The notes under the pieces were generated by a model that saw only the letters and a list, made by a program, of their open reading frames with translations, had not been told where the DNA came from and did not search any database. Position numbers and translations under genes: made by a program. Shown here in pieces: positions 3,600-22,038 of a stretch of 64,000 nt of DNA. Numbering within the stretch: the first letter of the stretch is position 1; every line of letters begins with the position of its first letter. The stretch is from Photobacterium angustum (GTDB lineage: Bacteria > Pseudomonadota > Gammaproteobacteria > Enterobacterales > Vibrionaceae), in the NCBI RefSeq assembly GCF_002954615.1, contig NZ_MSCJ01000003.1, positions 868,001-932,000 of the forward strand, read 5' to 3'.

Positions 3600-3617
3600 T
3601 TAACTCTTTTGAGTTAT

Positions 3618-4144: not shown

Positions 4145-4151
4145 ATATCCG

Positions 4152-5600: not shown

Positions 5601-5602
5601 AT

Positions 5603-5630
5603 AAAAAAGCGCCGAAAGGCGCTTTTTTTT
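5603..5630 (+). terminator. Rho-independent terminator of the second OmpA gene
   Basis: GCGCC-GAAA-GGCGC stem with A6 before and T8 after. It is the same stem-loop as after the first paralogue and may also serve the convergent rodA-like gene. Confidence 0.88.
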
Positions 5631-5634
5631 GACT

Positions 5635-6786
5635 CTATCTATTCGGATTAGGTGCGCAAATAGATTTCTTTCTTAAACAAAGTGCCATAATAATACCGAA
5701 AATAGCACCTTGAGTAATAATCGCTGAACCACCATAGCTAAAGAAAGGTAATGGACTTCCCATTACAGGTAATACACCGCTTACCATACCTATGTTAATA
5801 AAACTATATAGAAAGAAACTTAAAGCAAACGAGCCACTGACTAATCGTGCAAACGTTGATTCTGATTGATTCGCCAGCCATAGCACTCTAAAAGTCATAA
5901 ACGTATAAATTGCTAAAATAGTGAAGCTACCAATGTATCCCCATTCTTCTGCAAATGTTGAGAATATAAAATCGGTATGACTTTCTGGAATGAAACCAAG
6001 ATGACCTTGTGTTGCATCCATCCAACCTTTGCCAGATATACCGCCAGATCCAATTGCAATTTTGGATTGTATGATCTGATAACCAGAGCCTAATGGATCT
6101 GATTCAGGATTTAAAAATTGAAGAATACGTTTTTTCTGGTAAGTCTCCATCACAAAATACCACGCTAATGGAAGACTGACACCAATAATGGCTATCACAG
6201 ATGAAATTAACTTCCATGACATTCCCGCAAAATACAGAACAAATAGAGCGTACATTACTGTAAAGATAGCACCATCTAGATCTGGCTGAATAAAAATCAA
6301 TCCAGCTGGAATTGCGGTTACTATCAAACAAATCATGATCTTTTTAATACTTGGTCGACCCGCATCACTGACAAGGATCCAAGCCATCATAATTGGGACT
6401 GCTATTTTTACAAGCTCTGACGGTTGAAAACGTATTGGTCCTAATGCTAACCAGCGTTGTGAGCCATTGGTACTATCACCAAGAACAAATACACCAACAA
6501 GTAAAAGCACAGTAATAAAAAACAAATATGGAGCACTTCGTTCATAAGCGGCAGGTGAAATTGATGACATCACTAATAATGCGACAATCGCAATTCCGGC
6601 ACGAATGAGGTGACGCTCTATGATTGGCTCACTAAAGCTACTTGCACTCCATACACTCAAAGAGCTGAACGTGATAAGAATTAAAATCGATATCAATAGT
6701 GGTATATCGATATAAGGACGGAATTTACTCATCGTGTAATTCACTGATTCACGCAAATTTGCGTAGACGTTAGTAATGTTTGTCAC
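5635..6786 (-). CDS. RodA-like SEDS peptidoglycan glycosyltransferase (orphan)
   Basis: 383 residues and about ten membrane helices. SEDS landmarks are present: RFQPSELVKIAVP, NPESDPLGSGYQIIQSKIAIGSGG, IPESHTDFIFSTFAEEWG (with the Asp needed for glycan polymerisation in the family) and PLPFFSYGGSA. The usual QPDLGTA loop reads QPDLDGA. It is much closer to RodA (elongation) than FtsW. No PBP2, mreBCD or rlpA gene is beside it, so it is probably a second copy. The first codon as called is GTG with no clear ribosome site; ATG at 6732 (residue 19, MSKFRP) is an equally plausible start. Confidence 0.82.
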   Translation of the reverse strand: MTNITNVYANLRESVNYTMSKFRPYIDIPLLISILILITFSSLSVWSASSFSEPIIERHLIRAGIAIVALLVMSSISPAAYERSAPYLFFITVLLLVGVFVLGDSTNGSQRWLALGPIRFQPSELVKIAVPIMMAWILVSDAGRPSIKKIMICLIVTAIPAGLIFIQPDLDGAIFTVMYALFVLYFAGMSWKLISSVIAIIGVSLPLAWYFVMETYQKKRILQFLNPESDPLGSGYQIIQSKIAIGSGGISGKGWMDATQGHLGFIPESHTDFIFSTFAEEWGYIGSFTILAIYTFMTFRVLWLANQSESTFARLVSGSFALSFFLYSFINIGMVSGVLPVMGSPLPFFSYGGSAIITQGAIFGIIMALCLRKKSICAPNPNR

Positions 6787-7007
6787 TTTAGGGGAGTTAT
6801 TATTTGCCGCAAGATAAAAAGTGAAACAAAATGTGGCTTGAGCTTAAAAGGAAATATTATGAGTGATTTTCTAACACTAAGAGCATAAAAAGATGATTGA
6901 AGTAGCGCAAACTGTATAACAAGAATATTTGTTAAATAGTGACAAAGTACAGAGAAGCAAAGATAAATATAGTTATACTTTCTCTGTAATTTTAGTCGGA
7001 GAATCAG

Positions 7008-7922
7008 ATGGATCGTTACTACTGGGGTGTTGATTTAGGTGGTACGAAAATCGAATGTATTGTGATAGATCGTAACACTGATCAGTCGATTGTTCGTGAA
7101 CGTATCGAGACAGAAAGTATTAAAGGCTATCAACATATACTTGGTCAAATAAAGATACTGATTGAGCGGTGCGCAAACATAGTCGGACATTATCCTAATG
7201 CGGTTGGGTTTGGAACACCAGGCACGCTTGATCCTGTTCATGGCGTAATGAAAAACTGCAATACCACGGCCTTAAACGGCCATCCTCTTGATAAAGATCT
7301 TAATGAAACTCTCGGCGTCCATGCAGTTATTGCTAACGATGCTAATTGCTTTGCTTTAGCCGAAACTCATTTTGGGGTCGTAAAACGTATTAAGCCTGAA
7401 GCTCAAATTGTGTTTGGTATCATTATGGGAACGGGAGTGGGCTCAGGCATAGTGGTGGACGGCAAATGTTTATACGGTTGCCATGGTATTGCTGGTGAGT
7501 GGGGACATAATGTACTTGAACCAAAGGGTGCAGATTGCTATTGCGGTAAGCAAGGTTGTGTAGAAACGGTTATTTCTGGTAAAGGGTTAGAACGTTATTA
7601 TTACGAGCTATCATCTCAAGCGTTATCTTTGCCTGAGATCGTCGAGCAAGCGAAACAGAATAATCATGAAGCAGTGAAAACAATAACGCGTTTACGTGAG
7701 TATTTTGGTTTAGCGGTAGCACGAATTATTAACGTAATTGATCCTGAGGTTATAGTGATTGGTGGCGGTGTCGGTAATATTGATGCGTTATATCAAGATA
7801 TAGAAACACAAATTTTACCGCACTTGTTTAATACAGAGCTTAATACCCTGATTGTAAAACCAGAGCTAGGTGATAGCGCTGGTGTTTATGGCGCTGCGGC
7901 TTTAGTGAAAAACATTAGCTAA
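7008..7922 (+). CDS. ROK family sugar kinase (fructokinase/Mak-like)
   Basis: 304 residues. It has an N-terminal phosphate loop (GVDLGGTKIECIV), the sugar-binding block ANDANCFALAE with the catalytic Asp, the EWGHN motif and a ROK zinc site (CYCGKQGCVE). The 'NTTALNGHPLDKDL' segment resembles E. coli Mak (manno-fructokinase) more than NagK or NanK, so a fructose or mannose kinase is the best guess. It is monocistronic, preceded by an AGTCGGAGAA ribosome site and followed by a strong bidirectional terminator. Confidence 0.85.
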   Translation: MDRYYWGVDLGGTKIECIVIDRNTDQSIVRERIETESIKGYQHILGQIKILIERCANIVGHYPNAVGFGTPGTLDPVHGVMKNCNTTALNGHPLDKDLNETLGVHAVIANDANCFALAETHFGVVKRIKPEAQIVFGIIMGTGVGSGIVVDGKCLYGCHGIAGEWGHNVLEPKGADCYCGKQGCVETVISGKGLERYYYELSSQALSLPEIVEQAKQNNHEAVKTITRLREYFGLAVARIINVIDPEVIVIGGGVGNIDALYQDIETQILPHLFNTELNTLIVKPELGDSAGVYGAAALVKNIS

Positions 7923-7943
7923 ACAAGAGTTGTCCTAAAAGTT

Positions 7944-7978
7944 AAAAGCGCGATACTCATTAATAGTATCGCGCTTTT
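7944..7978. terminator. Bidirectional terminator
   Basis: A perfect 14-bp inverted repeat (AAAAGCGCGATACT / AGTATCGCGCTTTT) with a 7-nt loop lies between the convergent ROK kinase and MFS genes. Confidence 0.92.
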
Positions 7979-7981
7979 ATT

Positions 7982-9142
7982 TTAACTCGCCAGAACTTGA
8001 GGTTTACGATGTAAACTTGCTACTAGCATGTAAATTGCCGTTGCAAGTAGAACAATGAAGAAGAAATCCATTATTCCATTTTGTTCTGCCATAAAGCTGT
8101 TAGCACCAATCGGACCCAGTGCTGAACCAATGCTGTAACTAAACAGCATAACTTGTGTTGCAGCAACAATATATGAAGAATCCAAGTTGTCACACGCTAA
8201 TGTAATTGCAATTGGGTAAAGCGCAAAAGCAGACATGCCTAACAACGCCAATGCAGTGATCAGAACAACATAGTCTGATGATAGGTAAGTAATACCCATA
8301 GCAAAAACACCAAGCAAAGACATTAAAGCAAGCAATAGCGTTTTGCTCATTTTAATTGAAAGTTTGCTAATGATAGGTTGAATAACCATACCACCAAGAA
8401 TGGTTGCAGCCATCAACACGCCTACTTGATCTGTTGTTAGAGCGCTTTGCTTTAGTGCTAAAGGCATTAAACCGTAGATGCTGCCCATTACAACACCTGA
8501 AGTCATACAACCAATAATCGCAGGCTTACTCAAACGTGCAATTTGCTTTATTGATAACACTTGGTGTGAATCACTGCTAGGTTGGCCTTGTTTTACAAAC
8601 AAAGGCGGTAAAATAGCAATTAACAACAGTACTAGAATAACGATAAAAGGAATAAAGCCTTTAACGCCAAACATACCTACGGCTAATTGACCAACAGTAG
8701 TACCACCGTAGAGCGAGGTCATGTAAAAACCAAGACGTTTTGCTCGCTCTTTCGCGTTATCACCAATAAGTAGCCATGATTCAACAACAACAAAAATACC
8801 CGCAACAGCCATACCGGCAATTAGGCGTGCAAATAGCCATACTTCCTTATTTGGAAACATGGGTAAAACCGCAACAGTTGCTGCTAGCAAACCTAAAAAA
8901 GTAATAAAAGCCACACGGTGACCAATCTTCGCAATAATTGGTTCGATCATCATCGAGCCGATAAGAAGACCAATATAATAGATGCTTGCTAACCAACTCG
9001 CATAACTGCTATCAATTTTAAAATTTGTTAATGATAACGGGACCAAGCTCATAAGGTAGCCTGATGCGATTGCGAATACAGTTAGTCCAGCAACAGGCAC
9101 AAAAATGCCGCCGCTTTTGCGACAAGTAGTGATGTCTTGCAC
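7982..9142 (-). CDS. MFS transporter, YcaD-like
   Basis: About 386 residues with twelve predicted membrane helices. It carries the internal signatures of the YcaD subgroup (VVVESWLLI in helix 4-5, MTSGVVMGSIYGLMPLAL in helix 7, FALYPIAITLACD in helix 10). I chose the GTG at 9142 because a GGAGA sits 8 nt upstream and the length then matches the family (~382). The frame could be extended to 9226, giving a charged N-terminal tail of 28 residues, with poorer support. The substrate is unknown. Confidence 0.8.
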   Translation of the reverse strand: MQDITTCRKSGGIFVPVAGLTVFAIASGYLMSLVPLSLTNFKIDSSYASWLASIYYIGLLIGSMMIEPIIAKIGHRVAFITFLGLLAATVAVLPMFPNKEVWLFARLIAGMAVAGIFVVVESWLLIGDNAKERAKRLGFYMTSLYGGTTVGQLAVGMFGVKGFIPFIVILVLLLIAILPPLFVKQGQPSSDSHQVLSIKQIARLSKPAIIGCMTSGVVMGSIYGLMPLALKQSALTTDQVGVLMAATILGGMVIQPIISKLSIKMSKTLLLALMSLLGVFAMGITYLSSDYVVLITALALLGMSAFALYPIAITLACDNLDSSYIVAATQVMLFSYSIGSALGPIGANSFMAEQNGIMDFFFIVLLATAIYMLVASLHRKPQVLAS

Positions 9143-9677
9143 TACCTTGGTCTCCAAGTGAAATGTTTGAATTAATCTGTCTTTATTTAAGGTAATACGT
9201 TTAGAAAACGAAAAACCAGAAACCAAGGAATGATCACTGGAAATAACAAGACAGAGCTGTTTAAAAAAGTGTTTTATTCGAAAACGCGGCGATTATTGAC
9301 GCTAACCTAACATTAGTAAAATGAGAAAAACTAATGCGAAATGGGTTGTTTCATTACATTGAATAATGCCAAAAAATAATCGTTAGAGTAGTGATAATTA
9401 AAATGAGCACAAAATCACACTTTATCTGATTAATATATTTGTTTTTAAAGAATTAGAGCTGAGTTTACTGATGTAGAGTAGGGGGTAATTCAAATAATCA
9501 TTAGTGTTGTAATTGTTGCTGTATCCAAAAAAATAGTAAACGGTAGCTAATTTTCATCAAAATAATATAAAAAAAATTGGTTTCTAATGAAGAGTTTGGA
9601 TTACATATACTAAAAAGCCACCTTCCTATAGCGATATGGCACTATGAGTGAGGTGGCTAGTTATATTTTGAAGTCGA
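9143..9677. other. Intergenic region
   Basis: Upstream region of the MFS gene and downstream region of rbgA. It is AT-rich. Apart from the terminator at 9612-9658, I see no gene or RNA in it. Confidence 0.4.
9612..9658 (-). terminator. Rho-independent terminator of rbgA
   Basis: On the minus strand, AGCCACCT pairs with AGGTGGCT and is followed by five T. It lies 20 bp after the rbgA stop. Confidence 0.8.
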
Positions 9678-10631
9678 TTAACGTTTATTTTTTAGATAGC
9701 GTTTACGTCGTTCTTCTTTCTTTTTGATCTTTTGTTCTGCTTTGCGTTCAGCTTCTACTGCCACATTGATCAGCTCTTCAGTGATCATATCTGGATGCTC
9801 TAAAGTAATGTGACCCAGTGTACCGTTACGCAATTCATTGATAAGAATAACTGAGGCTTTGTGCAGATCAACACGACCACCTCCTTTTAAACAACCACGT
9901 TTACGCCCAATCTCTTCCATTAGCTCAATTTCAGATTCAGGCAGATCATCATCAAGGTTATAACGTGCCTTAATCATATCTGGGTATGCTTTGATCAGGT
10001 ATTCAATGGTAAAGAAACCAACATCGATATAATCCATCGCGGTATCTTTAATTGCACCTGTTGCAGCAAGGCGGAAACCACTGTGTGGATTTTCCACTTT
10101 TGGCCATAGAATTCCCGGTGTATCAGAAAGCAGTACGCCGTTATCTAGGTTAATACGTTGCTGTTGACGTGTTACAGCAGGTTGGTTTCCTGTGATTGCA
10201 ACAGTTCGGCCTGCTAGTGCATTGATAATGGTCGACTTACCAACGTTAGGAATACCCATGATCATGGTACGAATTTTTTTACCTGCTTCTTCACGGTGAG
10301 GTGCAAGCTTACGGCATAATTCCATGATCTGATTAACTTCGTTTAAGTTTTCAGTGGTGACTGCAATGGCTTTAACACCTTGTTCTTTTTCAAGGTGATC
10401 GATCCAAAGTTGTGTCATCTCAGGATCGGCCAAATCACGCTTGTTCAAAACTTTAACAACAGGCTTACCGTCATTGGTATTACGGAACGATTTGATCAGT
10501 GGGTTTTCACTACTAAATGGGATACGAGCATCTAAAACTTCGATGATCACATCAACTTTCGGCATCGCCTCTTCAATTTCTTTGCGGGCTTTGTGCATGT
10601 GCCCTGGAAACCACTGAATGCTATTACTCAT
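9678..10631 (-). CDS. ylqF: Ribosome biogenesis GTPase YlqF/RbgA
   Basis: 317 residues. A circularly permuted GTPase: the G4 motif NKRD (about residue 63) comes before G1 GIPNVGKS (about 126-133) and G3 DTPG (about 170). The N-terminal IQWFPGHMHKA motif is diagnostic of the RbgA/YlqF family. The C-terminal tail is a Lys/Arg-rich helix (KKKEERRKRYLKNKR) suited to rRNA contact. The family assists late 50S subunit assembly. It is monocistronic. Confidence 0.92.
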   Translation of the reverse strand: MSNSIQWFPGHMHKARKEIEEAMPKVDVIIEVLDARIPFSSENPLIKSFRNTNDGKPVVKVLNKRDLADPEMTQLWIDHLEKEQGVKAIAVTTENLNEVNQIMELCRKLAPHREEAGKKIRTMIMGIPNVGKSTIINALAGRTVAITGNQPAVTRQQQRINLDNGVLLSDTPGILWPKVENPHSGFRLAATGAIKDTAMDYIDVGFFTIEYLIKAYPDMIKARYNLDDDLPESEIELMEEIGRKRGCLKGGGRVDLHKASVILINELRNGTLGHITLEHPDMITEELINVAVEAERKAEQKIKKKEERRKRYLKNKR

Positions 10632-11021
10632 TATTTATGTACTCTTTATTTTTCTAGGTGTCCCTTGGGGTACAACCAGGGGTACTAAAATCTGTTGCAA
10701 GAGAGTGAGGTACGATTAAGTACATGAATACTTTACTCACTTACATTAAAACATTATGACAAGTTTACCATAAGTAGGCTAGGATGCCTCGTTACTACTT
10801 AACCAAATTTGTTGGTTTAAATGTTTGCACGATAAATTAGTTTATTAATAAATAATTGAGGCATAGTAAATAACGAAGAAGGTAATAGTTTTCTTAAAAA
10901 AGCTTAATATACAAAAAAATAGAGCACTCATTTCATGATATTAGATCTATTCATAGCTAAATGTAAAGAAAAGCTGCAAATTAGCAGCTTTATTTTAAAT
11001 GACATCTAGATAAAATTAGTC
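10632..11021. other. Boundary region between rbgA and the AT-rich cluster
   Basis: 390 bp. It holds the rbgA leader, with an imperfect GC-rich hairpin (CCCTTGG...CCAGGGG) at about 10660-10684, and, toward 11 kb, very AT-rich sequence and the terminator of the biosynthetic cluster. No tRNA, integrase or direct-repeat attachment site is visible here. Confidence 0.4.
10970..10991 (-). terminator. Terminator of the minus-strand arm of the biosynthetic cluster
   Basis: AAAGCTGC-AAATTA-GCAGCTTT hairpin, 30 bp past the stop of the fusion oxidase gene. On the minus strand the right arm ends in a T-rich stretch. Confidence 0.7.
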
Positions 11022-12533
11022 TTATTCAATATTTACAGTATTAGAAGAAAAGTGTTTTTTTACAGTTTCTTCAAGGCATTTATAATATTCTTCAGCGATT
11101 CTAAAACGGATCAAAACACCTTTGGCGATTTCTTGGCAAATACGCTCGCTTTTTGATGTATAAGGCAGCAATACATGTTCAAGCCATTCTGTACCATGAA
11201 TTGAGTCTATATGTATATGTTCTCTGTGATAAGCAATCGCTGATTCTGGGTAACCGCAACGTTCCATACCTTGTGTGATTGCTCTAAACCTTAATGGCGC
11301 TGAACCTTCAATAAGTCCAATGGCACCAAAAAGACGCAAGACGTATTTACGTCTTAGTGACCAAAAAGAAACAAGATTACCATTCATTAGGCAAGCTGTT
11401 GGAATTTTAGTAGGAAGAGAAATTGAAAAATTATCAAGGAGTTTACGACAATATTTTGATGAGTTGGTAAACATTTCAGTATGTATTTCTGAAAAATTTC
11501 CATTTCCCATTTCATCCCAATAATTTTCTGCTATTGTAAGTTTTGAATTATTTTCTACGCCTATCTGTGCAAGAGCCATAACATCATCAAAGCTCCCATC
11601 AACAAGCTCTTCCATGCAAACATAATATGCAATAGCTTCAGGTGAAGCTTCATTTTTTAGATAATCTAAAAATTCTGATATATTACTATTTAATTTAATA
11701 AGTTGTATTGTATACCAGTCTTTAAACTCTATAGGGTTAGAAGGTAATATTTCTAAACTTATATTTTCTTCTTCCCAATTCATCCAATTGTTTTCAATTC
11801 TCCTTATATTAGATAGGGTGTCTATATCATCTATAATATTATTAAAATTCATTGGGTCATCTATTTGAGCACAGTAATAGTTATACAGTTCTTTTTGAAT
11901 ATTATGTTCATTAAATTTATCTTCGATACTATTTTCTTTTATCACGGGTGATTCCTTTCTTATTATATATGGTGATAGATCAGGTTTTGATTTCCAATAT
12001 GGTTCTGGAGCAATCTGATCTTTTATTGGGCTGTAAATAGAGATTTCTTTAAAATGCATCGTATGTATATACCGCGGGCAATTAGGAAAAATAAATTCAG
12101 CATCGACAATGATGACACTTTCCGCATTAGGGAAATATGACAGTGTTTCAATGTTTTTTGATATTCTTGCAGTTCCATTAATGCGAATACGTCTTTTATC
12201 ACCTTCAAACTGAATAAATAGTAAAGCAACTTGATTTTTTTCATTAATATTTCCTAATGTACGATACATACCATTACCATCATAATTTGCAAATGCTAAT
12301 TGATTGTCTGATATGACTTTAACAAAGCCTGAACATCCTCCTTTATATGAACAATCCAATTTTCCATCAATGCTTGTTGTTGCAATAAAAAAGAAAAGTG
12401 AATTATTTATAATCTGACTGGTATCATCATTAAAGTTAGTGAGAAGACGAGTATCTCTAAGTTGATTTGCTATTAATTCACTGCCATTTTCATTCTGTAG
12501 TTTTTTTTGGCCTTCATTATAAAAATTATTCAT
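11022..12533 (-). CDS. PNPOx-like / haem-oxygenase-like diiron oxidase (HDO) fusion
   Basis: 503 residues, two domains. Residues ~25-190 look like a pyridoxamine-phosphate-oxidase-type split barrel (SLFFFIATTSIDGKLDCSYK, QVALLFIQFEGDKRRIRING). Residues ~265-490 are an all-helical 'iron-containing redox enzyme' (haem-oxygenase-like) domain with the expected metal-ligand pattern: E308/E309 in CMEEL, the WDEMGNG..EIH block (E341, H351), and H439-xxx-D443-xx-H446 in REHIHIDSIHGTEW. Known HDOs N-oxygenate, decarboxylate or fragment amino acids and fatty acids (SznF, UndA, BesC); the substrate here is unknown. It lies 9 bp after the desaturase gene in the same operon. Base composition is very AT-rich. 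Confidence 0.75.
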   Translation of the reverse strand: MNNFYNEGQKKLQNENGSELIANQLRDTRLLTNFNDDTSQIINNSLFFFIATTSIDGKLDCSYKGGCSGFVKVISDNQLAFANYDGNGMYRTLGNINEKNQVALLFIQFEGDKRRIRINGTARISKNIETLSYFPNAESVIIVDAEFIFPNCPRYIHTMHFKEISIYSPIKDQIAPEPYWKSKPDLSPYIIRKESPVIKENSIEDKFNEHNIQKELYNYYCAQIDDPMNFNNIIDDIDTLSNIRRIENNWMNWEEENISLEILPSNPIEFKDWYTIQLIKLNSNISEFLDYLKNEASPEAIAYYVCMEELVDGSFDDVMALAQIGVENNSKLTIAENYWDEMGNGNFSEIHTEMFTNSSKYCRKLLDNFSISLPTKIPTACLMNGNLVSFWSLRRKYVLRLFGAIGLIEGSAPLRFRAITQGMERCGYPESAIAYHREHIHIDSIHGTEWLEHVLLPYTSKSERICQEIAKGVLIRFRIAEEYYKCLEETVKKHFSSNTVNIE

Positions 12534-12542
12534 AATTTTACC

Positions 12543-13418
12543 TTAAATTGACTCAAGGAAAAATTCTGAGTATGAATGATTCGTATGTTTAATTTCACTC
12601 TTCATTTTTCGATGTAATATAGATAGTTTTTCAGGACGAACTAATGGAAACATATGATGTTCAACATGGTAATTGTTCCCATTTGTATACCACACCATAA
12701 AACTACTCGCTTTAATTGAACGTGTGTTTTCAAGTATATTTTCACTTTCATTATTACAACCAAAATGCTCTGGAAATTCAACTAGCGTATGTATAGGTGC
12801 GGCAATAAATAGAAGTGGAAGTAACCATATTGATATATATTCAATATTATTTGTATATGCTAGAATAGCACATGCTGCTATTATAGTGAGAAACATATAA
12901 ATATACTCATTATTGATTTTTCTATTTGTATTTTTATTAAATAGAGGGTTTATGTCCATTCTTTTAATTGATTTAATTGTTCGATTAAAAAAATCAATAT
13001 AATGAGAAATTAAAAAGAAACATAAAATTTTAGGAATTAATCCTTTATCTTTATCCAAGGTATTAAATTCAAAGAACTCTATATCATCTTCTGTACCTAC
13101 TTTTTCATGATGTATAAGATGACTAGCTTGATAGTTAGAGTAAGATACGAGCATCGGAGCACCTAATAAGAACCCGGTAATACGGTTAATTTTCTCATTA
13201 GTAAAAGCTCCGCCATGTAGTACCTGGTGTTGTAATTCAACACCATGTGAAAATGCTAAGCCAAGTACGATAATACCTAAAAAATATAGCCAACCGCCTT
13301 GGAAAAACAGCCATACACCAGATCCTATCATACTGATATAAATTAATATTTTTATTGTAAATGATACATTGCATGCACCGGAAATGTTCTTTAAGTCAAT
13401 TGCTTCAATAGTGTTCAT
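12543..13418 (-). CDS. Membrane fatty-acid-desaturase/hydroxylase superfamily protein
   Basis: 291 residues from ATG 13418, which has an ideal AAGGAGATATT leader; the frame runs on to 13460 without support. Three histidine boxes typical of integral-membrane diiron desaturases are present: HGVELQHQVLH (about 58-68), HLIHH (100-104) and HVEHH (251-255). Four to six hydrophobic helices surround them. By family it would use O2 and electrons, probably from a ferredoxin, to hydroxylate or desaturate a lipid or a small molecule; the divergent neighbour at 13592 encodes such a ferredoxin. It is first gene of the leftward operon. Confidence 0.85.
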   Translation of the reverse strand: MNTIEAIDLKNISGACNVSFTIKILIYISMIGSGVWLFFQGGWLYFLGIIVLGLAFSHGVELQHQVLHGGAFTNEKINRITGFLLGAPMLVSYSNYQASHLIHHEKVGTEDDIEFFEFNTLDKDKGLIPKILCFFLISHYIDFFNRTIKSIKRMDINPLFNKNTNRKINNEYIYMFLTIIAACAILAYTNNIEYISIWLLPLLFIAAPIHTLVEFPEHFGCNNESENILENTRSIKASSFMVWYTNGNNYHVEHHMFPLVRPEKLSILHRKMKSEIKHTNHSYSEFFLESI

Positions 13419-13591
13419 AATATCTCCTTGTTTTTTTACTATCTTATTTTTGAATAGCAAGAAGTAAATTTGAAATAATTTAATATTGATTAATTTATTT
13501 TTAACGTAAATTTTTTTGTATGCATATTAAGAAAAAGTTGATTGATAAATGTTTATTTTTTTTTATGATAAAAGCTCAAATGGAGGTTTAT
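13419..13591. promoter_or_regulatory. Shared divergent promoter region of the biosynthetic cluster
   Basis: 173 bp separating the leftward (desaturase, HDO fusion) and rightward (ferredoxin onward) arms. It is extremely AT-rich, with a T9 run at 13556-13564. It is the natural target for the cluster's LysR regulator, but the composition is too skewed to single out a T-N11-A site. Confidence 0.5.
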
Positions 13592-13852
13592 ATGAGTTAC
13601 TCAGATATTTTTTTATCAGAAGAGCAGTACATACATGAAGTTGATGACACTGATGTACAATTCGGATGTAAAAGGGGAGTATGTGGCCAATGCGTAGTAC
13701 TTATTAATGATGATAGTAATATATTAAGTAATAAATGTGAATATGAAAAAATGACTTTAGACATTATAGGGAAGTCTCAAAAAAATTATCGATTAGCATG
13801 TATGTGTAAAGCCTTATCAACTGGAAAAGTATCATTGTCTACAGCTATATAA
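13592..13852 (+). CDS. 2Fe-2S ferredoxin (plant/vertebrate type)
   Basis: 86 residues from ATG 13592, chosen because TGGAGG sits 7 nt upstream; the frame can be extended to 13520 but lacks a ribosome site. The cluster-binding pattern C26-x4-C31-x2-C34 ... C70 (GCKRGVCGQC, RLACMCK) fits a small [2Fe-2S] ferredoxin. It is likely to supply electrons to the oxygenases beside it, most obviously the membrane diiron enzyme encoded divergently. No ferredoxin reductase gene is in the cluster, so a host reductase must serve. Confidence 0.85.
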   Translation: MSYSDIFLSEEQYIHEVDDTDVQFGCKRGVCGQCVVLINDDSNILSNKCEYEKMTLDIIGKSQKNYRLACMCKALSTGKVSLSTAI

Positions 13853-13866
13853 ATAGGAATAATAAG

Positions 13867-14559
13867 TTGAATTTATTGAAAGAGGTTGAAAGAAATTTCT
13901 GTGTTGTATCTGACATAGAAAAAGTATTGGATATGGATGTTTTAAATACATCTGACTGGGATTTATTTAAGAACTCTTGGAATAAACTTGGTCTTGATAA
14001 TTTTATGAACGATGGCGGTCAATATCGTAGAAGAAACTTTTGTAAATTTAGATATCATTTTGATGATAATTCATTATGGATAAAAGAACATGATTATTAT
14101 TTTCAACCAGAAAATGTAAATACTTTAAATGGCGGAATAAAGAGGTGGTTTACTCCTGTAACCAGTGAAGTTTTCTATAATAAAGTGGTTAATAAACTTA
14201 TTAAAAAAATGGGTAAAGAACTATCATTATTAACAGATCAAAAAACTTGGGATGTGAATTTTTATCAAAATAGAATTATTGCTGAACAAGGTAAAGAAGG
14301 AAAACCTTCTCCTGAAGGAATACATAAAGATGGCGTCAAATATAGCATATTATTACTTATAGATAGAGAAAATATAAATGGAGGTAGAAATACTATATTT
14401 AACTTAGATCGTGAGCCTATTTTTTCTCATACTCTTAAAAAAGAAGGCGAATGTATTATTTTTTCTGATGATCAAACATATCATTTTGCTTCTTCAATTG
14501 AACAAGTCAAACCTAATATTGTAGGTAAACGTGATTTACTCGTCGTTGAGTTTTATTAA
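13867..14559 (+). CDS. 2-oxoglutarate/Fe(II) dioxygenase, 2OG-Fe_Oxy_2-like (amino-acid hydroxylase type)
   Basis: 230 residues. The facial triad reads H153-x-D155 (PEGIHKDG) and H206 (DDQTYHFAS), with R222 placed to bind 2-oxoglutarate; the intervening LLLIDRENINGGRNTIF block is typical of PF10014. Characterised members hydroxylate free L-amino acids such as isoleucine (IDO), so an amino-acid substrate is the best inference. The start is a TTG at 13867 with AGGAAT upstream, 14 bp after the ferredoxin stop. Hand count of 13861-13920 gives 16 G/C in 60. Confidence 0.8.
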   Translation: MNLLKEVERNFCVVSDIEKVLDMDVLNTSDWDLFKNSWNKLGLDNFMNDGGQYRRRNFCKFRYHFDDNSLWIKEHDYYFQPENVNTLNGGIKRWFTPVTSEVFYNKVVNKLIKKMGKELSLLTDQKTWDVNFYQNRIIAEQGKEGKPSPEGIHKDGVKYSILLLIDRENINGGRNTIFNLDREPIFSHTLKKEGECIIFSDDQTYHFASSIEQVKPNIVGKRDLLVVEFY

Positions 14560-14573
14560 ATAGGTTTTAATTA

Positions 14574-15119
14574 ATGTACGGAGATAAAAAAGATAAGACG
14601 ATCATTTATCGAGGGATCAGAAATCGTGATGCTGAAACTATAGCTGATATAATGTCTATGCCAGGAGTTACACATGGACTTTCATCGATTCCGTATACGA
14701 GTGAAAGTATTGTGAAAAGTATGATTGATGATATTACAAATAAACATTGGATTATTGCAGAGAATGAAGGGAAGGCGATCGGCTTTATTTATCTAAATTG
14801 GCCTAATGGGCGTTGGCGTAGAGTTTCTTCATTAGCCATGGGGGTATCTGATGAATTCGTATCTCAAGGTATTGGTTATGGTTTACTTCAAAGGGCTTTA
14901 CAAGTTGGATTCGATTATCTTGATTTTGAAAGAATCGAGTTAGTAGTTTATCAAGATAATATTTCAGCAATATCTATTTATAAAAAAAGCGGAATGGTTC
15001 ATGAGGGTAAAAGAGAAGAACAAGTTATTCGTAATGGTATTTATTATGACTCATATTTAATGGGTATCACGAGAAGCCAGTACAAACAATCAGTTAAAAC
15101 TACCAATTTTAATTATTAA
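14574..15119 (+). CDS. GNAT family N-acetyltransferase
   Basis: 181 residues. The acetyl-CoA-binding motif SQGIGYGLLQRAL (about 97-109) is the Q-x-x-G-x-G/A signature. It is followed by the RimJ/RimL-like 'LVVYQDNISAISIYKKSGMVHEGKR' region, broken here by ordinary spacing. Such enzymes acetylate small-molecule amines or protein N-termini. Sitting 14 bp after the hydroxylase gene and 14 bp before a ThiF-like gene, it probably modifies the amine of the pathway intermediate or protects the host from the product. Confidence 0.8.
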   Translation: MYGDKKDKTIIYRGIRNRDAETIADIMSMPGVTHGLSSIPYTSESIVKSMIDDITNKHWIIAENEGKAIGFIYLNWPNGRWRRVSSLAMGVSDEFVSQGIGYGLLQRALQVGFDYLDFERIELVVYQDNISAISIYKKSGMVHEGKREEQVIRNGIYYDSYLMGITRSQYKQSVKTTNFNY

Positions 15120-15133
15120 TATGAGAGGGACAA

Positions 15134-15940
15134 ATGAATAATACAAATAACTATGAGCATTCTTTGTTATTTAGCCGAATGCTTGGCATTATTAATGAAG
15201 ATGAACTTAAAGTTTTAGAAAATAAAAAAATAGCTGTTCCAGGTGCAGGTGGTGTTGGATTTACTCATGCTGAGACACTTGTAAGAATGGGAGTTGGAGC
15301 TATTAATATTGCTGATTTTGATACGTTTGGGCCAGAAAACATGAATCGGCAATTTGGTTGTACGATAAGTACAATTGGTCAAGAAAAAGTATCTATTCTT
15401 AATGAACGTTTAAACGATATAAATCCTAATATAAAGACCCAAACTTTTGAGGGTATATCTTATGAAAATATTGACGATTTTTTAGATGGCGTTGATCTAG
15501 TCTGTGATGCTATGGATTATTTTGTTATTGAACCTAGAATACTCATGTATAAACGAGCTCGAGAAAAAGGAATTCCTGTAATTGTTTCTGGTCCTGTAGG
15601 GTTTGGGGCTTCTTTGCATGTGTTTTCACCTGATGGTATGTCATTCGAAGAGTTTTTTGATTTAAAAGCATCAGATACTACTGATGAGAAATTACTAAAA
15701 TTTGGTATTGGCCTGACACCTTCTGAACTCTATCTAGATTATCAACCCTCCGCTTGTTTAAATTTTAATACAAAAAAAGTATCTTCAATTAGTAGTTCTT
15801 GTTTACTGGCTAGTTCATTAACAGGAAGTGCAAGTCTTTTACAATTACTTGGCTCACAAAGTTTTAAGGCAGTTCCTTACTGCTACCAATTAGATTTACG
15901 TTCTTTTAAATTTGAGGAAGTATTATTTAGGAAGAAATAG
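15134..15940 (+). CDS. ThiF/MoeB/E1-like adenylating enzyme
   Basis: 268 residues. It has a Rossmann nucleotide site (KIAVPGAGGVGFTHAETLVRMG, GAGGVG at 37-42), the DFDTFGPENMNRQ strand-helix with the conserved Asn-x-x-Arg (R72), and an Asp equivalent to the Mg-ATP-binding Asp of MoeB in VCDAMD (about 125). The CxxC zinc pairs of canonical E1s are absent and there is no rhodanese domain. Family members adenylate a carboxylate, usually the C-terminus of a ubiquitin-like protein or peptide. No such partner is encoded nearby, so a small-molecule carboxylate is possible. Confidence 0.82.
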   Translation: MNNTNNYEHSLLFSRMLGIINEDELKVLENKKIAVPGAGGVGFTHAETLVRMGVGAINIADFDTFGPENMNRQFGCTISTIGQEKVSILNERLNDINPNIKTQTFEGISYENIDDFLDGVDLVCDAMDYFVIEPRILMYKRAREKGIPVIVSGPVGFGASLHVFSPDGMSFEEFFDLKASDTTDEKLLKFGIGLTPSELYLDYQPSACLNFNTKKVSSISSSCLLASSLTGSASLLQLLGSQSFKAVPYCYQLDLRSFKFEEVLFRKK

Positions 15941-16115
15941 GGTAATATTATCTTCATTTATCTTATATTTATAAAATATAGAATGATATTTATCAGTTAT
16001 TTTTAATTATAGTGAACTAACTACATATATTACTGTTATTTATTATAAATTTTTTTATATATAATAATTGAATTAGCTTTTATTTTATGGAAAAAATTCA
16101 AGTGGTAAATGAAAT

Positions 16116-16946
16116 ATGCAAATGAACCAAATTAATGCATTTATAGCTATCGCTAAATCAGGCTCATTAGCTAGAGCTGCTGAGCTTGTGCATGCAACAC
16201 CAGCTGCTTTAAGTCAGCGTATTAAGCAGTTCGAATCACGCTTAGGAGCTCAAGTCTTTGTGCGTAGTAATAAAGGTATGGAGTTATCACCTCAAGGAGA
16301 GGTTATTTACGATCATGCTTTAAATATTTCAGAGGAGGTAAAGAATTTATTAGCTTCTGTTTCAAAAGTTTCAATTGAAAATAAAAGAGAAACCTTAGTT
16401 GTTAGCAATGGTTTTAACCCGGAAAATATATGTAAACTTACATTATCAAGTGAAATTGAAAATTATGCTATTAATATTAGAAGGATGGGAGATGATTCTA
16501 TATTAATGGCTTTGAAATCTGGTCATGTAAATATGTGTATTGGATTTTTTTCGTTTGATAATGAAAATATAAAATCAATATATCTTGGTACTAATACATT
16601 TGTATGCGTAAGCTTTAATAAAACTAAAATTGGACGAGGAAATTTATCTATTGCAGGACCTAATATACCTAATTTGATGAACTTCTTTAGTCTTGGCTCA
16701 GCAGATAAAGTTCGATATAACGATTGTTACGATAATATACTGAGGTATGCTGCTGATAAAGGTTATTATGCTATTATGGATAAAGATTTTGCTCTTGAAT
16801 GTATTAATAAGCATAAAGGGTTGAATATTGTTGGTGAGAGTGTAAAAATACCTTTTTACTTAAATTTTAATGAGTTAGGTGTCGAAAAGAACATTTTAAA
16901 TCCTATTAAAGGTGTTTTTTCTAATTATTTAAAAAATGAAAAATAA
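16116..16946 (+). CDS. LysR family transcriptional regulator
   Basis: 276 residues, slightly short for the family. The N-terminal winged helix-turn-helix (MNQINAFIAIAKSGSLARAA...ALSQRIKQFESRLGAQVF) is unmistakable; the effector domain is divergent. It lies 175 bp after the ThiF-like gene in its own AT-rich promoter region and 45 bp before argC, with which it is probably co-transcribed. It is the only regulator in the cluster and likely controls the divergent promoter at 13.5 kb. Confidence 0.85.
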   Translation: MQMNQINAFIAIAKSGSLARAAELVHATPAALSQRIKQFESRLGAQVFVRSNKGMELSPQGEVIYDHALNISEEVKNLLASVSKVSIENKRETLVVSNGFNPENICKLTLSSEIENYAINIRRMGDDSILMALKSGHVNMCIGFFSFDNENIKSIYLGTNTFVCVSFNKTKIGRGNLSIAGPNIPNLMNFFSLGSADKVRYNDCYDNILRYAADKGYYAIMDKDFALECINKHKGLNIVGESVKIPFYLNFNELGVEKNILNPIKGVFSNYLKNEK

Positions 16947-16991
16947 CCATTATCTTATTTAAATATATAATTTACATGGAAGGTAATTAAT

Positions 16992-17951
16992 GTGAACAAA
17001 ATTTTTATTGATGGTCAAGTTGGTACTACAGGATTACAAATACATTCTAGATTAAAATATCGCACTGATATAGAAATAATAGAGATTGATAACAAATATA
17101 GAAAAGATGCATCAGTTCGTAAGGAAGTAATAAATAGTTCTGATGTGGTTATTTTGTGTTTACCTGATGAGGCCGCGAAAGAATCTGTATCGTTGATTGA
17201 TTCTCATAATGTTAGAGTTCTTGATGCGAGTTCTGCTCATAGAGTTAGTGAAGGTTGGACTTATGGTTTGCCCGAACTTTCAAAGAACCAGACTTTAAAC
17301 ATTTCTAGTGCTCAGCGAGTTTCTAATCCTGGTTGTTATCCAACTGGAGCTGTGCTGTTGTTGAATCCTCTCATTAGCACCGGCCTATTAGATGGTAACT
17401 ATCCCTACTCAGTTAATGCTGTATCTGGCTATACTGGCGGTGGGCGCGATGCCATTAATCGTTTTGAGGATAGTACACGAAGTGATTATATTTCGAGTAC
17501 TTCAAGACGTTATGCACTCCATCATGAACACAAGCATATTAAAGAAATGCAGGAGTATTCTGGATTAGGCCAAAAACCAATATTTCAGCCAGCTTATGGT
17601 AGTTATAGGCAAGGAATCGTTTTACAGATACCGATACATTTAAATGCTCATAAAACAGGCCTAACGGACGATATATTACGTCAAACATTATTAAGTTATT
17701 ATGCTGATTCAGCTTTTATCAAAGTATTAAACAAGTCAGAAACATTAAATATTGAAGGGTTAGATCCAGAGATACATAATAATACAAATAATATAACTTT
17801 GGCTGTATTTAGTCCTGAAGGTACTGATCATGTGGTATTAGCTGCAATATATGATAATTTAGGTAAAGGCGCATCAGGAGCTGCAGTTCAAAATTTAGAG
17901 ATAATGTTAAATTTAGTTCCTTCTGATGGAAAAGTATTAGCGCTAGATTAA
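16992..17951 (+). CDS. argC: N-acetyl-gamma-glutamyl-phosphate reductase, type 2 (ArgC-like)
   Basis: 319 residues. It matches the shorter 'type 2' ArgC family: IDGQVGTTGLQI nucleotide site, ILCLPDEAAKE, DASSAHRV, catalytic C115 in SNPGCYPTGA, NAVSGYTGGGR, EHKHIKEMQ and a C-terminal NLGKGASGAAVQN. The family reduces an acyl phosphate of an N-acetylated amino acid to the semialdehyde. The GTG start has GGAAGG upstream. In arginine-synthesising Vibrionaceae the primary argC sits with argBGH, so this copy in an oxygenase cluster is probably a pathway-specific paralogue. Confidence 0.88.
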   Translation: MNKIFIDGQVGTTGLQIHSRLKYRTDIEIIEIDNKYRKDASVRKEVINSSDVVILCLPDEAAKESVSLIDSHNVRVLDASSAHRVSEGWTYGLPELSKNQTLNISSAQRVSNPGCYPTGAVLLLNPLISTGLLDGNYPYSVNAVSGYTGGGRDAINRFEDSTRSDYISSTSRRYALHHEHKHIKEMQEYSGLGQKPIFQPAYGSYRQGIVLQIPIHLNAHKTGLTDDILRQTLLSYYADSAFIKVLNKSETLNIEGLDPEIHNNTNNITLAVFSPEGTDHVVLAAIYDNLGKGASGAAVQNLEIMLNLVPSDGKVLALD

Positions 17952-18002
17952 TATTTATTATTCTTATAGAACTATAAGATTATAGATATAATTCATTAAA
18001 TA

Positions 18003-18026
18003 AAAAGCTGCAATTATGTGGCTTTT
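18003..18026. terminator. Weak hairpin between convergent argC and usher genes
   Basis: AAAAGC/GCTTTT stem with a 10-nt loop and an adjacent A/T tract on each side. It is short, so the call is tentative. Confidence 0.5.
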
Positions 18027-18081: not shown

Positions 18082-20519
18082 TTAGTTAATATCAAGCTCA
18101 CATAATTCTTTTTTGTCAATACATCCAACGTCAATTTCGATATTGCTTATCCACGTTTGATTATTTTCTATAATCCATGGCGTTGATATTTGCTGTGTGT
18201 TTGTTTTATATGTAACGGTATATTCAGCAGGAGTTAGATCTTCTATAATGAAAAAACCATCACCTTCTATTTTATAACTACGAGCAACTTGATTTCGATT
18301 GTTTAAAAAAGTAATGCTCGCATTTGGGTCACCATTAAAGTTCACAATATAGCCATCGATACCGACAATTTGATCTAGATGCACAGTTACAAACGTTATC
18401 CCGCCTTCTTCTGTATTCATTAATAATGGATTAAATTGCGGCTGATAACTCACATCAAGCGTTGTGGGATCGATATGTAGAGGAATGTTGTCATTAACGC
18501 TAACACCCTCAATGGTAAAGTGCCCATTTTCATCAGATTGTGTCTTATGACGGTATACACTGAGCCCTATATCAGGAATTGGTTTCCCATTACTATCAAT
18601 CACAACACCTTTGATAGCGGCATAGCCATAGTCATTGGGTGAGATAGATTTAGCATACCAGCGTTGCTCTTTGTATGCTTTGAAGCTGTATTGAATTTTA
18701 CTTGATAACGAGAATGAATTATCGCTCACTTCAGCTGTAAGTTTAATATTGGGGTTTAACTCAACAGACATTAACGCTGCTGCTGATAATTTCTTATCAT
18801 ACCGAACTTTAAATTTGTATTGTGTTTGTTCTGTTATTAAAAAAGAAGGGAAAAAACAGTTATCGCAGAAATAACGATAGCTTGCGTAATAATCGAGATG
18901 CGTAGTATTGTGTTTTTGCCTTAGCATTACCGTCAATGCTTCATAAAAACTTCTATTATAGATTGTCTTAAATTCATACTCTTGAGAGTTTTCGTCTTTT
19001 TTACGTTTATCTGAAACATTAAAATAAGTAGAGAGAGAAGATGTGATTTGAGTTCTTAGTTGTACATCGGTATGTAGCTTTTTCTTCGTCTGTTTGGATT
19101 GTAAATTTAATGATAAGTAGCGATTGAAATAGCGATATTCTAACTGATTGAACGTTTTATTTGGTCGATTTGATAATAAGTCATGCTGATTATAATTAAG
19201 TTTTAAATAGTGATTAGCTGACAGGTTGAAATCAACTTCTGCTGATAACTTACGTTGTTGTGTTAACCATGCAATATTAACAGCAAGGTTAGGACGTAAA
19301 ATAGCTCTAAATCCTGTCACTATATTCATTTGAGTATCAGAATTAAAAAGGCTGAGACCAAGGGTCATTTTATCTTTTAAGCCATAACTAAAACGTGCTC
19401 TTGATTTATGTTCATTAAAGACATCACCTTGAGTGGCATATGAAAAATCGCCTTGTTTTATGATCGATTCAGAAATACTCGCAATATGAATATACTCTGT
19501 GTTTATTTGACCAACATCGATTAACTCTTTGAGTGAAATAATATCATTAGGAGATACGTTAAATCCATTTACAACGTATCTACCTGCATTGTTTGCTTGT
19601 ACTGTTTTTACATAAATACCATTAAGATAAACATCAACATAAGCATCAGGCGTGGTGTATCTTTCATCATAAAAAGCGCCGTCACCATTGTCTTCATAAT
19701 TGGTGAGGCTAAATCCATGTTGAAAATGATTGAGTGAATTAGTTGTAGATTCTGAAATTGTAATATCACCTAAAGTGAGGTCGGAATTGCCAAAAATATG
19801 ATTGTATTGATATTTGTAATAGGTGAGTGGGTCATGAACGCTTGTATCTAGTGATAAATCTATAAATTGATCATGGTGACGAAAAAAAAATCACTATCTG
19901 CTTCTATGCGATGCGCATGTTTACTGTAATACATATTTAATCCAAGTTTTCCCTGCACTCCCGTTGTTTTTGTAGGTATTGTAATAGGTTGGGATTGGAT
20001 GTTTTTAACTTCTTTTGCATGCTGTATTGCAGCAAGACGACTTTCTTCAATATTTTTTTGAAGATCATCAGCAGAGCGATGATGAGTGGTAATTTTTAAA
20101 ATATAGCGATTAGGATGCCAATATACGCTGGCATTAAAACATGTTTCTATCGCTTGCCACGATAGCCACAATTCGTTATCAATCACCTTACTTTGAATAT
20201 CTTTTTTTTCGTTGTTGTTAGTCGCTTTACAATATTGATGTTGAAAATCAATTGTCACGATTGCTGCTTGAGAAGTTGAGGGGCTTTGATATTTACATAC
20301 AAAGGTATCACATGTTTGCTGTAAACCAGATAGGAAAGGGATAACAGAGTTCATGTTTATGTAGGGTGTATCATCGTCAAATAATACCCTGAAAAAAGAG
20401 TCGTAGTGGCTGTTTGAACGTAGTTCTATATATGCTTCAGTAAGTTCACTAGCATAAATAGAAAAACTGAATAAAACGAAAACCAGATACTTATGAGCAT
20501 GTTTTAATTTGTTCATCAT
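18082..20519 (-). pseudogene. Fimbrial outer-membrane usher, split by a frameshift in a 9-base homopolymer
   Basis: The N-terminal part (20519 down to ~19860) starts with a signal peptide and ends prematurely after ...DSDFFFVTMINL. Adding one base to the T9 coding-strand run (plus-strand A9, 19882-19890) gives a frame that stays open to 18082 with usher-like beta-barrel sequence (DLTLGDITISES, PDAYVDVYLNG, GRYVVNGFNVSPNDIISL, ...) and a C-terminal carboxypeptidase-regulatory-like domain (KGVVIDSNGKPIPDIGLSV). The restored protein would be about 810 residues, normal for an usher. Possible causes are phase variation, transcriptional slippage, true inactivation or a sequencing error. Its start overlaps the chaperone gene by 29 bp. 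Confidence 0.8.
19882..19890. repeat. A9/T9 homopolymer at the usher frameshift
   Basis: Nine consecutive A on the plus strand (T on the coding strand). One extra base restores the full usher frame; one base fewer gives an early stop as well. Confidence 0.85.
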
Positions 20520-21180
20520 TGATTGTTACGTTTGTTTTTCCATCATAATTAAGCGCAAGATCAGATTGACGAAGTAAAATATATTTTTTGTATGTTTTGG
20601 TGTTTTTAAGTTCAACTTTAAGCTGGTATTTTGAGTTGTTAGTGATTTTAAGTTTACCGTCATTACACTGAACAACGGGAACGGTAGGTTTGTTTAAGCC
20701 CTTTTTTTGATAGTAAATTGGAACGGATGAATTGACTAGCATGGTTAAATTAAGTGCTAAGCCATCATTATTGTTCATATTGTTAGCTTTGATAGGGTTG
20801 ATCAGTTCTTGTTTAAAGTGCAGATGAGTTCGATATTCACCAGATGGAAAGTCATTAGGGACATCGTTAACACGAAGTCTAACTACGCGTCTTTCGTTAG
20901 GCATTAAACGGCTAAGAACCGGAGGGGATATACGAAGATAAGGGGTAAGATCTTCCGCTTCTTTGGTAATCTCTTTGTGTCTGGTTAAATAGCTGTTATT
21001 TGGTGTTGAAAGGTAGTCTGCTGATACACGAATACGTATAGGTTGATCGCCCGTATTTGACACTAAAAACTTTTGGGTAATGTTTGGTTCAGAAGTAACC
21101 ACCCTTAATGGCGCCACTTTCATATTGGCAAGACAGGGTAAGGTAAACATGACGAGAAAAAAAACAAATATAACTTTCAT
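20491..21180 (-). CDS. Fimbrial periplasmic chaperone (PapD-like)
   Basis: 229 residues. It has a signal peptide (cleaved near CLAN), then an immunoglobulin-like N-terminal domain with the family patterns LVSNTGDQPIRIRV and LRISPPVLSRLMPNERRVVRLRV, and a second Ig-like domain (KLKITNNSKYQLKVELKN). It folds and escorts pilin subunits to the usher. It starts 8 bp after the minor pilin stop and overlaps the usher start. An A8 run lies in its signal-peptide codons. Confidence 0.87.
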   Translation of the reverse strand: MKVIFVFFLVMFTLPCLANMKVAPLRVVTSEPNITQKFLVSNTGDQPIRIRVSADYLSTPNNSYLTRHKEITKEAEDLTPYLRISPPVLSRLMPNERRVVRLRVNDVPNDFPSGEYRTHLHFKQELINPIKANNMNNNDGLALNLTMLVNSSVPIYYQKKGLNKPTVPVVQCNDGKLKITNNSKYQLKVELKNTKTYKKYILLRQSDLALNYDGKTNVTINDEQIKTCS

Positions 21181-21188
21181 TTAATCCC

Positions 21189-21605
21189 TTAATTATCAAT
21201 ATACTCAGTATCAATTAACACATTTATATCAAATTTATCAGCGCTAATTTTAGGGTGAATGAGAAAGATAGCATCAAGAGTAAGCGTCTTTGTTAGGCCT
21301 TTACTATTTGTTTTTGTGATATTGTTTCTTATAAAGCCTTGACGGTAATTTATTTTCTGTAAAGTAATATACTTTTTACTTTCAGCACGTGCATTTACTC
21401 TAATGTAAGCATTTTCTTTACCTTTTAATTTAAACTTGAAATTACTGCTATTAAGATCATGACCACCTAGATTAATTAATTGAGGATAGTTTGCCTTTAC
21501 AACGGTTATAAAAGCCAATTCTCTATCAATGATTTCAATAGCAGTTACATCAAAACAGAAAAATAATAAGGAAAAAAAAACTTTATTGGTAAACAACCGA
21601 TACAT
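21189..21605 (-). CDS. Minor fimbrial subunit (putative)
   Basis: 138 residues from ATG 21605, overlapping the pilin stop by 23 bp; an upstream extension to 21650 would bury the signal peptide. It has an N-terminal hydrophobic segment (VFFSLLFFCFDVTA) then a beta-rich mature domain with no recognised motif. Its position between pilin and chaperone suggests a minor or anchoring subunit. The signal-peptide codons contain a nine-base A/T run at 21572-21580, a second possible slippage site in the operon. Confidence 0.6.
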   Translation of the reverse strand: MYRLFTNKVFFSLLFFCFDVTAIEIIDRELAFITVVKANYPQLINLGGHDLNSSNFKFKLKGKENAYIRVNARAESKKYITLQKINYRQGFIRNNITKTNSKGLTKTLTLDAIFLIHPKISADKFDINVLIDTEYIDN

Positions 21606-22038
21606 TAAATGTGCCTGTGTAGGTACCAACAACAAGTGGACTTGACGCATTCACTATATCTGCAGTGCCGCCAACTTTTACTTCTGTTGGTGATGTACTT
21701 AATAGTGCAGTTGTAAGATCTGTCGTAATACCTGTGACAGAAATAGTATCACTGGTTGTACTGTGCGTCATAGTGGCAGTATTATCATGAGTAATATTAA
21801 CTGAATCACCATCATGCCCAGTAATGTTGAATGCTGCGGCACCTGCATCAGTAGTTGCGACAACGACATTTGTCGTACTATCAGAAAAAATAGTACCAAA
21901 GTCCAATGCACTCGTTTGTACTAGCGTTAACGGGGCAATAACTTCAATAGTTGCTTGAATATTTTGATCTTCAGCGTGTGAGAGTAAAGGTAATGAAGCA
22001 AAAGTTACAAAAGTAACGGCACGTATAATTTTTTTCAT
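21583..22038 (-). CDS. DUF4402-like major pilin subunit
   Basis: 151 residues. There is a clear signal peptide (MKKIIRAVTFVTFASLPLLSHA), then a Thr/Ser/Val-rich beta-sandwich beginning ATIEVIAPLTLVQTSALDFGTIF, which is the DUF4402 pattern, and ending GTYTGTFNVSVVYQ with the penultimate aromatic typical of chaperone-usher pilins. It is first in the operon and is the likely shaft subunit. Confidence 0.8.
   Translation of the reverse strand: MKKIIRAVTFVTFASLPLLSHAEDQNIQATIEVIAPLTLVQTSALDFGTIFSDSTTNVVVATTDAGAAAFNITGHDGDSVNITHDNTATMTHSTTSDTISVTGITTDLTTALLSTSPTEVKVGGTADIVNASSPLVVGTYTGTFNVSVVYQ

Follow-up and report, generated by a model that had tools for sequence, protein, structure and literature searches.

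In a 64,000-nucleotide stretch of the Photobacterium angustum genome (contig NZ_MSCJ01000003.1, positions 868,001 to 932,000; hereafter the window), eight genes occupy positions 11022-17951, the first two on the minus strand and the other six on the plus strand (Table 1). We read this cluster as a variant of the nitro amino acid pathways that employ HrmI- and HrmJ-kind enzymes, extended by a module for adenylation and reduction. It has the look of a genuine small-molecule pathway that is largely uncharacterised, and we found no published description of the gene set in the open-licence PMC literature. Whether the cluster makes a nitro amino acid from lysine is, in our estimate, evenly balanced. 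A nitrocyclopropane ring is less sure, and a step in which the product is acetylated, adenylated and reduced is least sure; substrate, single reactions, their order and the product are what we infer. A first-pass annotation of the sequence had proposed a small modified amino acid as product, which our results support, but could not name a characterised pathway. Such a pathway can be named: for two of the three oxygenases the closest characterised relatives by sequence are HrmI and HrmJ (BelK and BelL), and a sister cluster exists in Moritella marina.

The first of these oxygenases is a haem-oxygenase-like diiron oxygenase (HDO), fused to a PNPOx domain within one open reading frame (ORF) of 503 residues (PNPOx_N 35.9 bits, cut-off 28.1; Haem_oxygenas_2 105 bits, cut-off 28.9). 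HrmI (9nh9) is its nearest solved relative by both sequence (26% identity) and fold. HDO residues E308, H351, E409, H439, D443 and H446 align with E161, H204, E258, H288, D292 and H295 of HrmI, and we presume them to be the diiron ligands (3 His / 3 carboxylate pattern). According to its PDB entry title, HrmI is the lysine N-oxygenase of hormaomycin. RohS, with a weak sequence match (E=0.075), and SznF rank after HrmI; both have a fold in common with the window HDO and are N-oxygenases by entry title or, for SznF, by a review (PMC13108848).

The second is a 2-oxoglutarate (2OG)-Fe oxygenase (2OG-Fe_Oxy_2, PF10014, 184.1 bits). Its residues H153, D155, H206 and R222, which we take to be the Fe and 2OG ligands, were invariant across 15 aligned homologues. 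The best PDB sequence match with a named function was an HrmJ (E=3.7e-25, versus 2.6e-7 for isoleucine hydroxylase, 6lnh), tied with the uncharacterised 3pl0. According to PMC10764440, HrmJ is the nitrocyclopropane-forming partner of HrmI, and an HrmI-type HDO together with HrmJ is the known cyclopropanation pairing. Position 136, named there as setting the stereochemistry, was uninformative: if the numbering transfers, the window enzyme has Arg, but so does isoleucine hydroxylase.

The strongest reason for the nitro amino acid reading is, by analogy, the sister cluster of M. marina (Table 1), which is flanked on both sides by transposase-like ORFs, one of them scanned as IS3. Its HDO matched HrmI over residues 12-335 of 344 (E=5.7e-106), and its 2OG protein matched 8jms and 9dq0 (BelL and HrmJ by title) with E values of 6.7e-63 and 7.6e-63. 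Within 8 kb, tblastn revealed neither a desaturase nor a PNPOx match. The ThiF-like protein of M. marina ATCC 15381 (P0152) is 58% identical to that of the window. Thus, a ThiF/ArgC pair stands beside a textbook-like nitrocyclopropane pair in M. marina and beside a more distant pair in the window, and this is why we read the latter as belonging to a nitro amino acid pathway. The DapF-like gene of M. marina has counterparts in the third gene pair common to hormaomycin and belactosin (PMC10764440). The pyridoxal phosphate (PLP) enzyme is GntC/VioD-like with scores under the cut-offs.

As the first-pass annotation had suggested, we searched for the gene set in other genomes and found that it does co-occur. 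We located 32 loci with the HDO protein and sought partner genes by tblastn within 8 kb; ORF calls around these loci were incomplete in genomes of intermediate GC content and served as leads only. A desaturase was present at 20 loci, PNPOx at 16, the 2OG oxygenase at nine, ThiF at five and ArgC at five. Ferredoxin was found at two, or at five if matches about 5 kb away from the HDO (L022, L025, L027) are counted, which we excluded as cluster members. Moritella PE36 (L001) and Aliivibrio sifiae (L002) contain the full set in the same divergent arrangement, with PNPOx and HDO in separate frames in the latter. Two Enterobacterales loci, from Winslowiella (L026) and genome G369 (L064), show a one-strand run of desaturase, PNPOx, HDO, 2OG oxygenase, GNAT, ThiF and ArgC, in which the GNAT differs from that of the window and the window ferredoxin and LysR were unmatched. 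After this core (L026:14666-20668, L064:13802-19803), the domain scan detected a condensation-domain gene in Winslowiella, while a look-alike in G369 and a long ORF resembling a non-ribosomal peptide synthetase (NRPS) were assigned by reading only. The amino acid may therefore enter a peptide in these two bacteria. That the oxygenases and the adenylating and reducing enzymes occur without NRPS or polyketide synthase, as claimed earlier, is true of the eight window genes, while the core at these two loci has NRPS-type neighbours.

Other loci carry parts of the set: it lacks PNPOx in Pseudomonas Irchel 3H7 (L024), ThiF in Trinickia (L005), where an EamA-type gene lies within the run, and ArgC in Frankia (L008), where the desaturase is fused to PNPOx. 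Fourteen further actinomycete loci (L009-L021, L023) combine HDO with the desaturase; PNPOx is also present at eight of these, and the 2OG oxygenase at three (L014, L018, L021). In L014, genes for a major facilitator superfamily transporter, a putative cyclase and a nitroreductase are located nearby. A GyrB gene beside the Pseudomonas locus was rejected as a resistance copy, as the next ORFs are sized like recF, dnaN and dnaA, and we assign it to what is probably the ordinary origin region. In Pseudomonas capeferrum (L003:8300-15294), a standalone HDO stands in a row with genes of the glyoxalase family and the ATP-grasp type and with a BesD-like lysine halogenase (228 bits, BesD cut-off 450; PF23169 284 bits), which might amount to a route from lysine to a product by cryptic chlorination.

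Within the genus, 52 genomes were compared, counting that of the window, and six matched the HDO protein at E≤1e-10. Five of these matches were weak: two were HDO-like with 26% identity, and three covered just the PNPOx part. The cluster-type HDO gene thus occurs solely in the window's own genome among the 52. At E≤1e-20, the HDO was matched in four of 394 genomes of the order and four of 197 of the family, counting its own genome in both and including some remote matches. One match within the family, in genome G798, has the coordinates of the A. sifiae locus (L002).

The ThiF-like enzyme scored 134.1 bits against the ThiF Pfam model and fell below the PRK08223 cut-off (253.1 versus 266). Compared with 18 PRK08223-like proteins, the ThiFs examined from eight clusters fall into a single clade (support 100/100, long stem of 2.18 changes per column), and all eight adjoin HDO and 2OG genes. 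They have in common with 17 or all 18 of the PRK08223 type the residues G37/39/40/42, D61/63, N69, R72, Q73, K85, D121, D125 and D128, presumably the ATP site, whereas they have fixed residues of their own, for example E47, G66-P67-E68, C124, P134, H162 and K245. Because the ATP-site residues are kept and clade-specific positions are changed, we read the cluster enzymes as likely to perform the same adenylating chemistry on another substrate. Searches at E≤1e-70 in three partly overlapping draws of genomes gave hits in one of 246, two of 11 and one of 398, all four being HDO carriers already found. In a class-wide search at E≤1e-50, 19 of 369 genomes had a match, and the 18 others were 36-40% identical and fall in the other clade. 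A profile search had 120 of 320 database relatives listed at E≤1e-60, proteins from Acinetobacter, Paraburkholderia and Billgrantia among them. Plasmid matches, three Nitratidesulfovibrio records that are about 38% identical across no more than 79% of the query, were dismissed.

The ArgC-family protein of the window exceeds the TIGR01851 cut-off (381.6 versus 229.85) and retains C115 and H182, which we take to be the catalytic Cys and His. Each of the eight hosts tested whose cluster includes ArgC has another ArgC besides it, a type-1 ArgC in the case of the window genome. Seven of these hosts have a type-1 ArgC above the cut-off, one of them (Winslowiella) with one stop codon in the match, and the second match in Trinickia is under that cut-off. 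In the ArgC tree, one group (97/96) holds the seven window-type copies, and the copy of M. marina pairs with an ArgC from another gammaproteobacterium (100/99) that has no other cluster genes in its 20 kb. Hence, ArgC was recruited at least twice (two changes, forced by the starred branches). In a comparison with 28 other type-2 ArgCs, which leaves out HK_L098, the row closest to the M. marina copy, the eight cluster copies all retain 49 of the 60 columns that 27 or more of the 28 conserve. V202 is replaced by Y or I and M209 by I in all seven window-type copies, positions conserved in 28 and 27 of the 28 others, respectively.

The third oxygenase, the membrane desaturase (FA_desaturase, 133.9 bits), has His boxes at H58/H64/H68, H100-H104 and H251-H255. 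The guanitoxin enzymes GntB and GntC are the best NCBIfam models for this protein and for the M. marina PLP enzyme, but both scores lie far under the cut-offs (72 versus 380 and 214 versus 415), and the desaturase is weakly GntB-like. The ferredoxin (Fer2, 27.6 bits, cut-off 21) has cysteines C26, C31 and C34, and the LysR helix-turn-helix scored 65 bits. PNPOx is fused to HDO in the window, to the desaturase in Frankia and to GNAT in proteins P0080 and P0081. These varied fusions suggest that PNPOx, HDO, desaturase and GNAT act on one substrate, although the PNPOx family is broad. PNPOx domains of the window kind are also fused to a cyclase (PF04199); proteins P0080, P0081 and P0106 carry either GNAT or this cyclase.

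We propose that this apparently transferred operon pair follows the HrmI/HrmJ (BelK/BelL) logic and would yield a lysine-derived nitro amino acid. The membrane enzyme possibly hydroxylates lysine first. The PNPOx-HDO protein would then N-oxidise lysine to a nitro compound with electrons from its FMN domain, the ferredoxin or both, and the PF10014 oxygenase would abstract a side-chain hydrogen of this compound to give a nitrocyclopropane or, less likely, hydroxylate it. GNAT may acetylate the alpha-amine, which would protect the intermediate or serve self-resistance. The dedicated ThiF would adenylate the carboxylate, and the ArgC paralogue would accept the acyl group on Cys115 and reduce it to the aldehyde, with LysR as regulator. 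ArgA, ArgB and ArgC acetylate, activate (by a kinase) and reduce, in this order. The window likewise pairs an acetyltransferase with an ArgC-family reductase, but there is no kinase among the eight genes and a ThiF-type adenylating enzyme takes the place of ArgB. In its most specific form, ThiF and ArgC would be a two-protein carboxylate reductase (acyl-adenylate to the ArgC cysteine, then NADPH) reserved for amino acids with a nitro or nitrocyclopropyl group. Together with GNAT it would deliver an N-acetyl amino aldehyde bearing a nitrocyclopropane, and secondary metabolism would have re-invented ArgABC without a kinase; we hold this full version to be quite unlikely. Adenylation of a nitronate by ThiF, leading to a nitrile oxide, was also considered.

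Other assignments of single enzymes have to be weighed. The 2OG enzyme might simply hydroxylate a C-H bond of the nitro amino acid, like ordinary enzymes of the IDO/BsmA type, with no cyclopropane formed. Its sequence relatives include isoleucine hydroxylase (6lnh). By fold, that enzyme comes before HrmJ 9dqp and BelL, the isoleucine dioxygenase falls among the HrmJ/BelL entries, and 3pl0 and 8w8h outrank every HrmJ entry. The fold comparison does not settle the HrmJ assignment. However, by sequence the HrmJ match is far better than that to isoleucine hydroxylase and the gene is co-encoded with an HrmI-type HDO, and we find the hydroxylase rather doubtful. ArgC, in turn, could be a self-resistance copy that lets the producer survive if the product or its acetylated form inhibits the native ArgC, and GNAT may then also detoxify. 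The extra ArgC in every ArgC-bearing host tested, its repeated recruitment and the 49 unchanged columns, C115 and H182 included, would fit such a role. Moreover, arginine biosynthesis is the proposed target of mangotoxin, which an HDO produces (PMC13185094), and the best match of the M. marina GNAT was the arsinothricin-resistance model ArsN1a, under the cut-off (78 versus 170). Yet the V202 and M209 changes fit an altered substrate at least equally well, and Frankia has no second ArgC; we regard a resistance copy as unlikely. Both roles fit, and we prefer the reductive step in view of the altered residues and the presence of ThiF and GNAT alongside. The double recruitment, the separability in Trinickia and Frankia and the mangotoxin precedent keep the resistance copy in consideration.

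The HDO might also desaturate or cleave a lysine-type substrate in the manner of BesC, giving an unsaturated amino acid. BesC is an HDO with a substrate resembling that of HrmI (PMC13108848), and the P. capeferrum HDO, 46% identical to that of the window, adjoins the BesD-like lysine halogenase and the ATP-grasp gene. We judge this very unlikely. That the eight genes are chance neighbours is extremely improbable: the region next to them is rearranged in three congeneric genomes, so accessory genes can gather there, but all eight occur together in Moritella PE36 and A. sifiae, and in G369 seven functions follow in matching order on one strand.

The nitro amino acid pathway favoured here can be set beside hormaomycin (hrmI-hrmJ-hrmT) and belactosin (belK-belL-belM), compared through their descriptions in PMC10764440. 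As in those modules, an HrmI-kind HDO and an HrmJ/BelL-kind PF10014 oxygenase are co-encoded, and the M. marina sister cluster also shares DapF with hrmT and belM. The window differs in adding the PNPOx fusion, the membrane diiron enzyme, ThiF, ArgC and GNAT, and family scans detected no DapF-like (hrmT/belM), NRPS or ATP-grasp gene among its eight genes.

Table 1. Features of the Photobacterium angustum cluster (positions in the window) and the sister locus of Moritella marina (positions in that locus)
Feature	Position	Strand or place	Evidence
Terminator-like hairpin, T-rich tail	10970..10991	left-arm end	terminator scan and folding
PNPOx (FMN split-barrel) + HDO fusion, 503 aa, proposed lysine N6-oxygenase	11022..12533	-	Pfam, alignment with HrmI
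Membrane diiron desaturase/hydroxylase family	12543..13418	-	FA_desaturase, three His boxes
2Fe-2S ferredoxin, proposed electron donor	13592..13852	+	Fer2; alternative ORF start 13520
2OG-Fe oxygenase PF10014, HrmJ/BelL-related	13867..14559	+	2OG-Fe_Oxy_2, PDB sequence and fold comparison
GNAT acetyltransferase, proposed N-acetylation	14574..15119	+	family models
E1-like (ThiF) adenylating enzyme	15134..15940	+	ThiF, clade tree
LysR-type regulator	16116..16946	+	LysR HTH
Type-2 ArgC (N-acetyl-gamma-glutamyl-phosphate reductase family)	16992..17951	+	TIGR01851
Terminator-like hairpin, T-rich tail	18003..18026	+, right-arm end	terminator scan and folding
M. marina locus L066: ferredoxin (4Fe-4S), HDO, 2OG, ThiF, PLP enzyme, ArgC, DapF, GNAT	3418-13493		

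The layout of two divergent arms with hairpins at both ends, as first annotated, was confirmed by positions, strands and a terminator scan, and the family assignments of all eight genes by Pfam and NCBIfam scores. The scan found nine hairpins in the region versus 2.7±1.5 in shuffles, both cluster-end hairpins included, which folded with z=-2.9 (left) and z=-3.0 (right), each on the strand of its own arm. The suggestion of transfer, based on sample counts of 16 of 60 G/C at 13861-13920 and 24 of 60 at 9901-9960 that proved correct, also stood. GC content is 30.6% across the cluster versus 37.6% in the remaining window, and 432 sliding windows of equal length outside the cluster had a minimum of 33.3% (mean 37.8%, standard deviation 1.5). 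GC at third codon positions is 0.160-0.236 in the eight genes versus 0.241-0.371 in all 33 other genes, chosen by hand from the ORF list of the window. With this transfer-like composition, and with its type of HDO gene in one of 52 genomes of the genus, the cluster was apparently imported. A clean empty site was not found, as the three congeneric genomes with the right-hand flanking gene differ in regional arrangement; RbgA was unmatched in the 18-19 kb compared in these three. A second accessory module adjoins the cluster at 18082-21650 and consists of a carboxypeptidase-regulatory-like gene and smaller genes, some without a family match and others outside the scan. Three of the other 51 genomes of the genus matched it at 32-57% identity, and its surroundings differ there.

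In the accessible part of PMC10764440, the assayed nitrocyclopropane enzymes named are from Streptomyces, and numerous Actinomycetota and Proteobacteria are noted to have belL homologues. The compact clusters of the window and related loci, a family with patchy distribution among bacteria of sea and soil, give belL-type homologues a setting, and a clade of E1-like enzymes accompanies such clusters in the eight cases examined. If the carboxylate reductase proposal were true, this gene set would have moved among marine gammaproteobacteria, pseudomonads, Enterobacterales and Frankia, the last of which lacks the cluster ArgC. Within about 7 kb, the cluster offers a candidate diiron N-oxygenase that is fused to a flavin domain and may be self-sufficient, a candidate membrane diiron enzyme whose substrate would be a free amino acid, and a candidate pair of proteins for carboxylate reduction.

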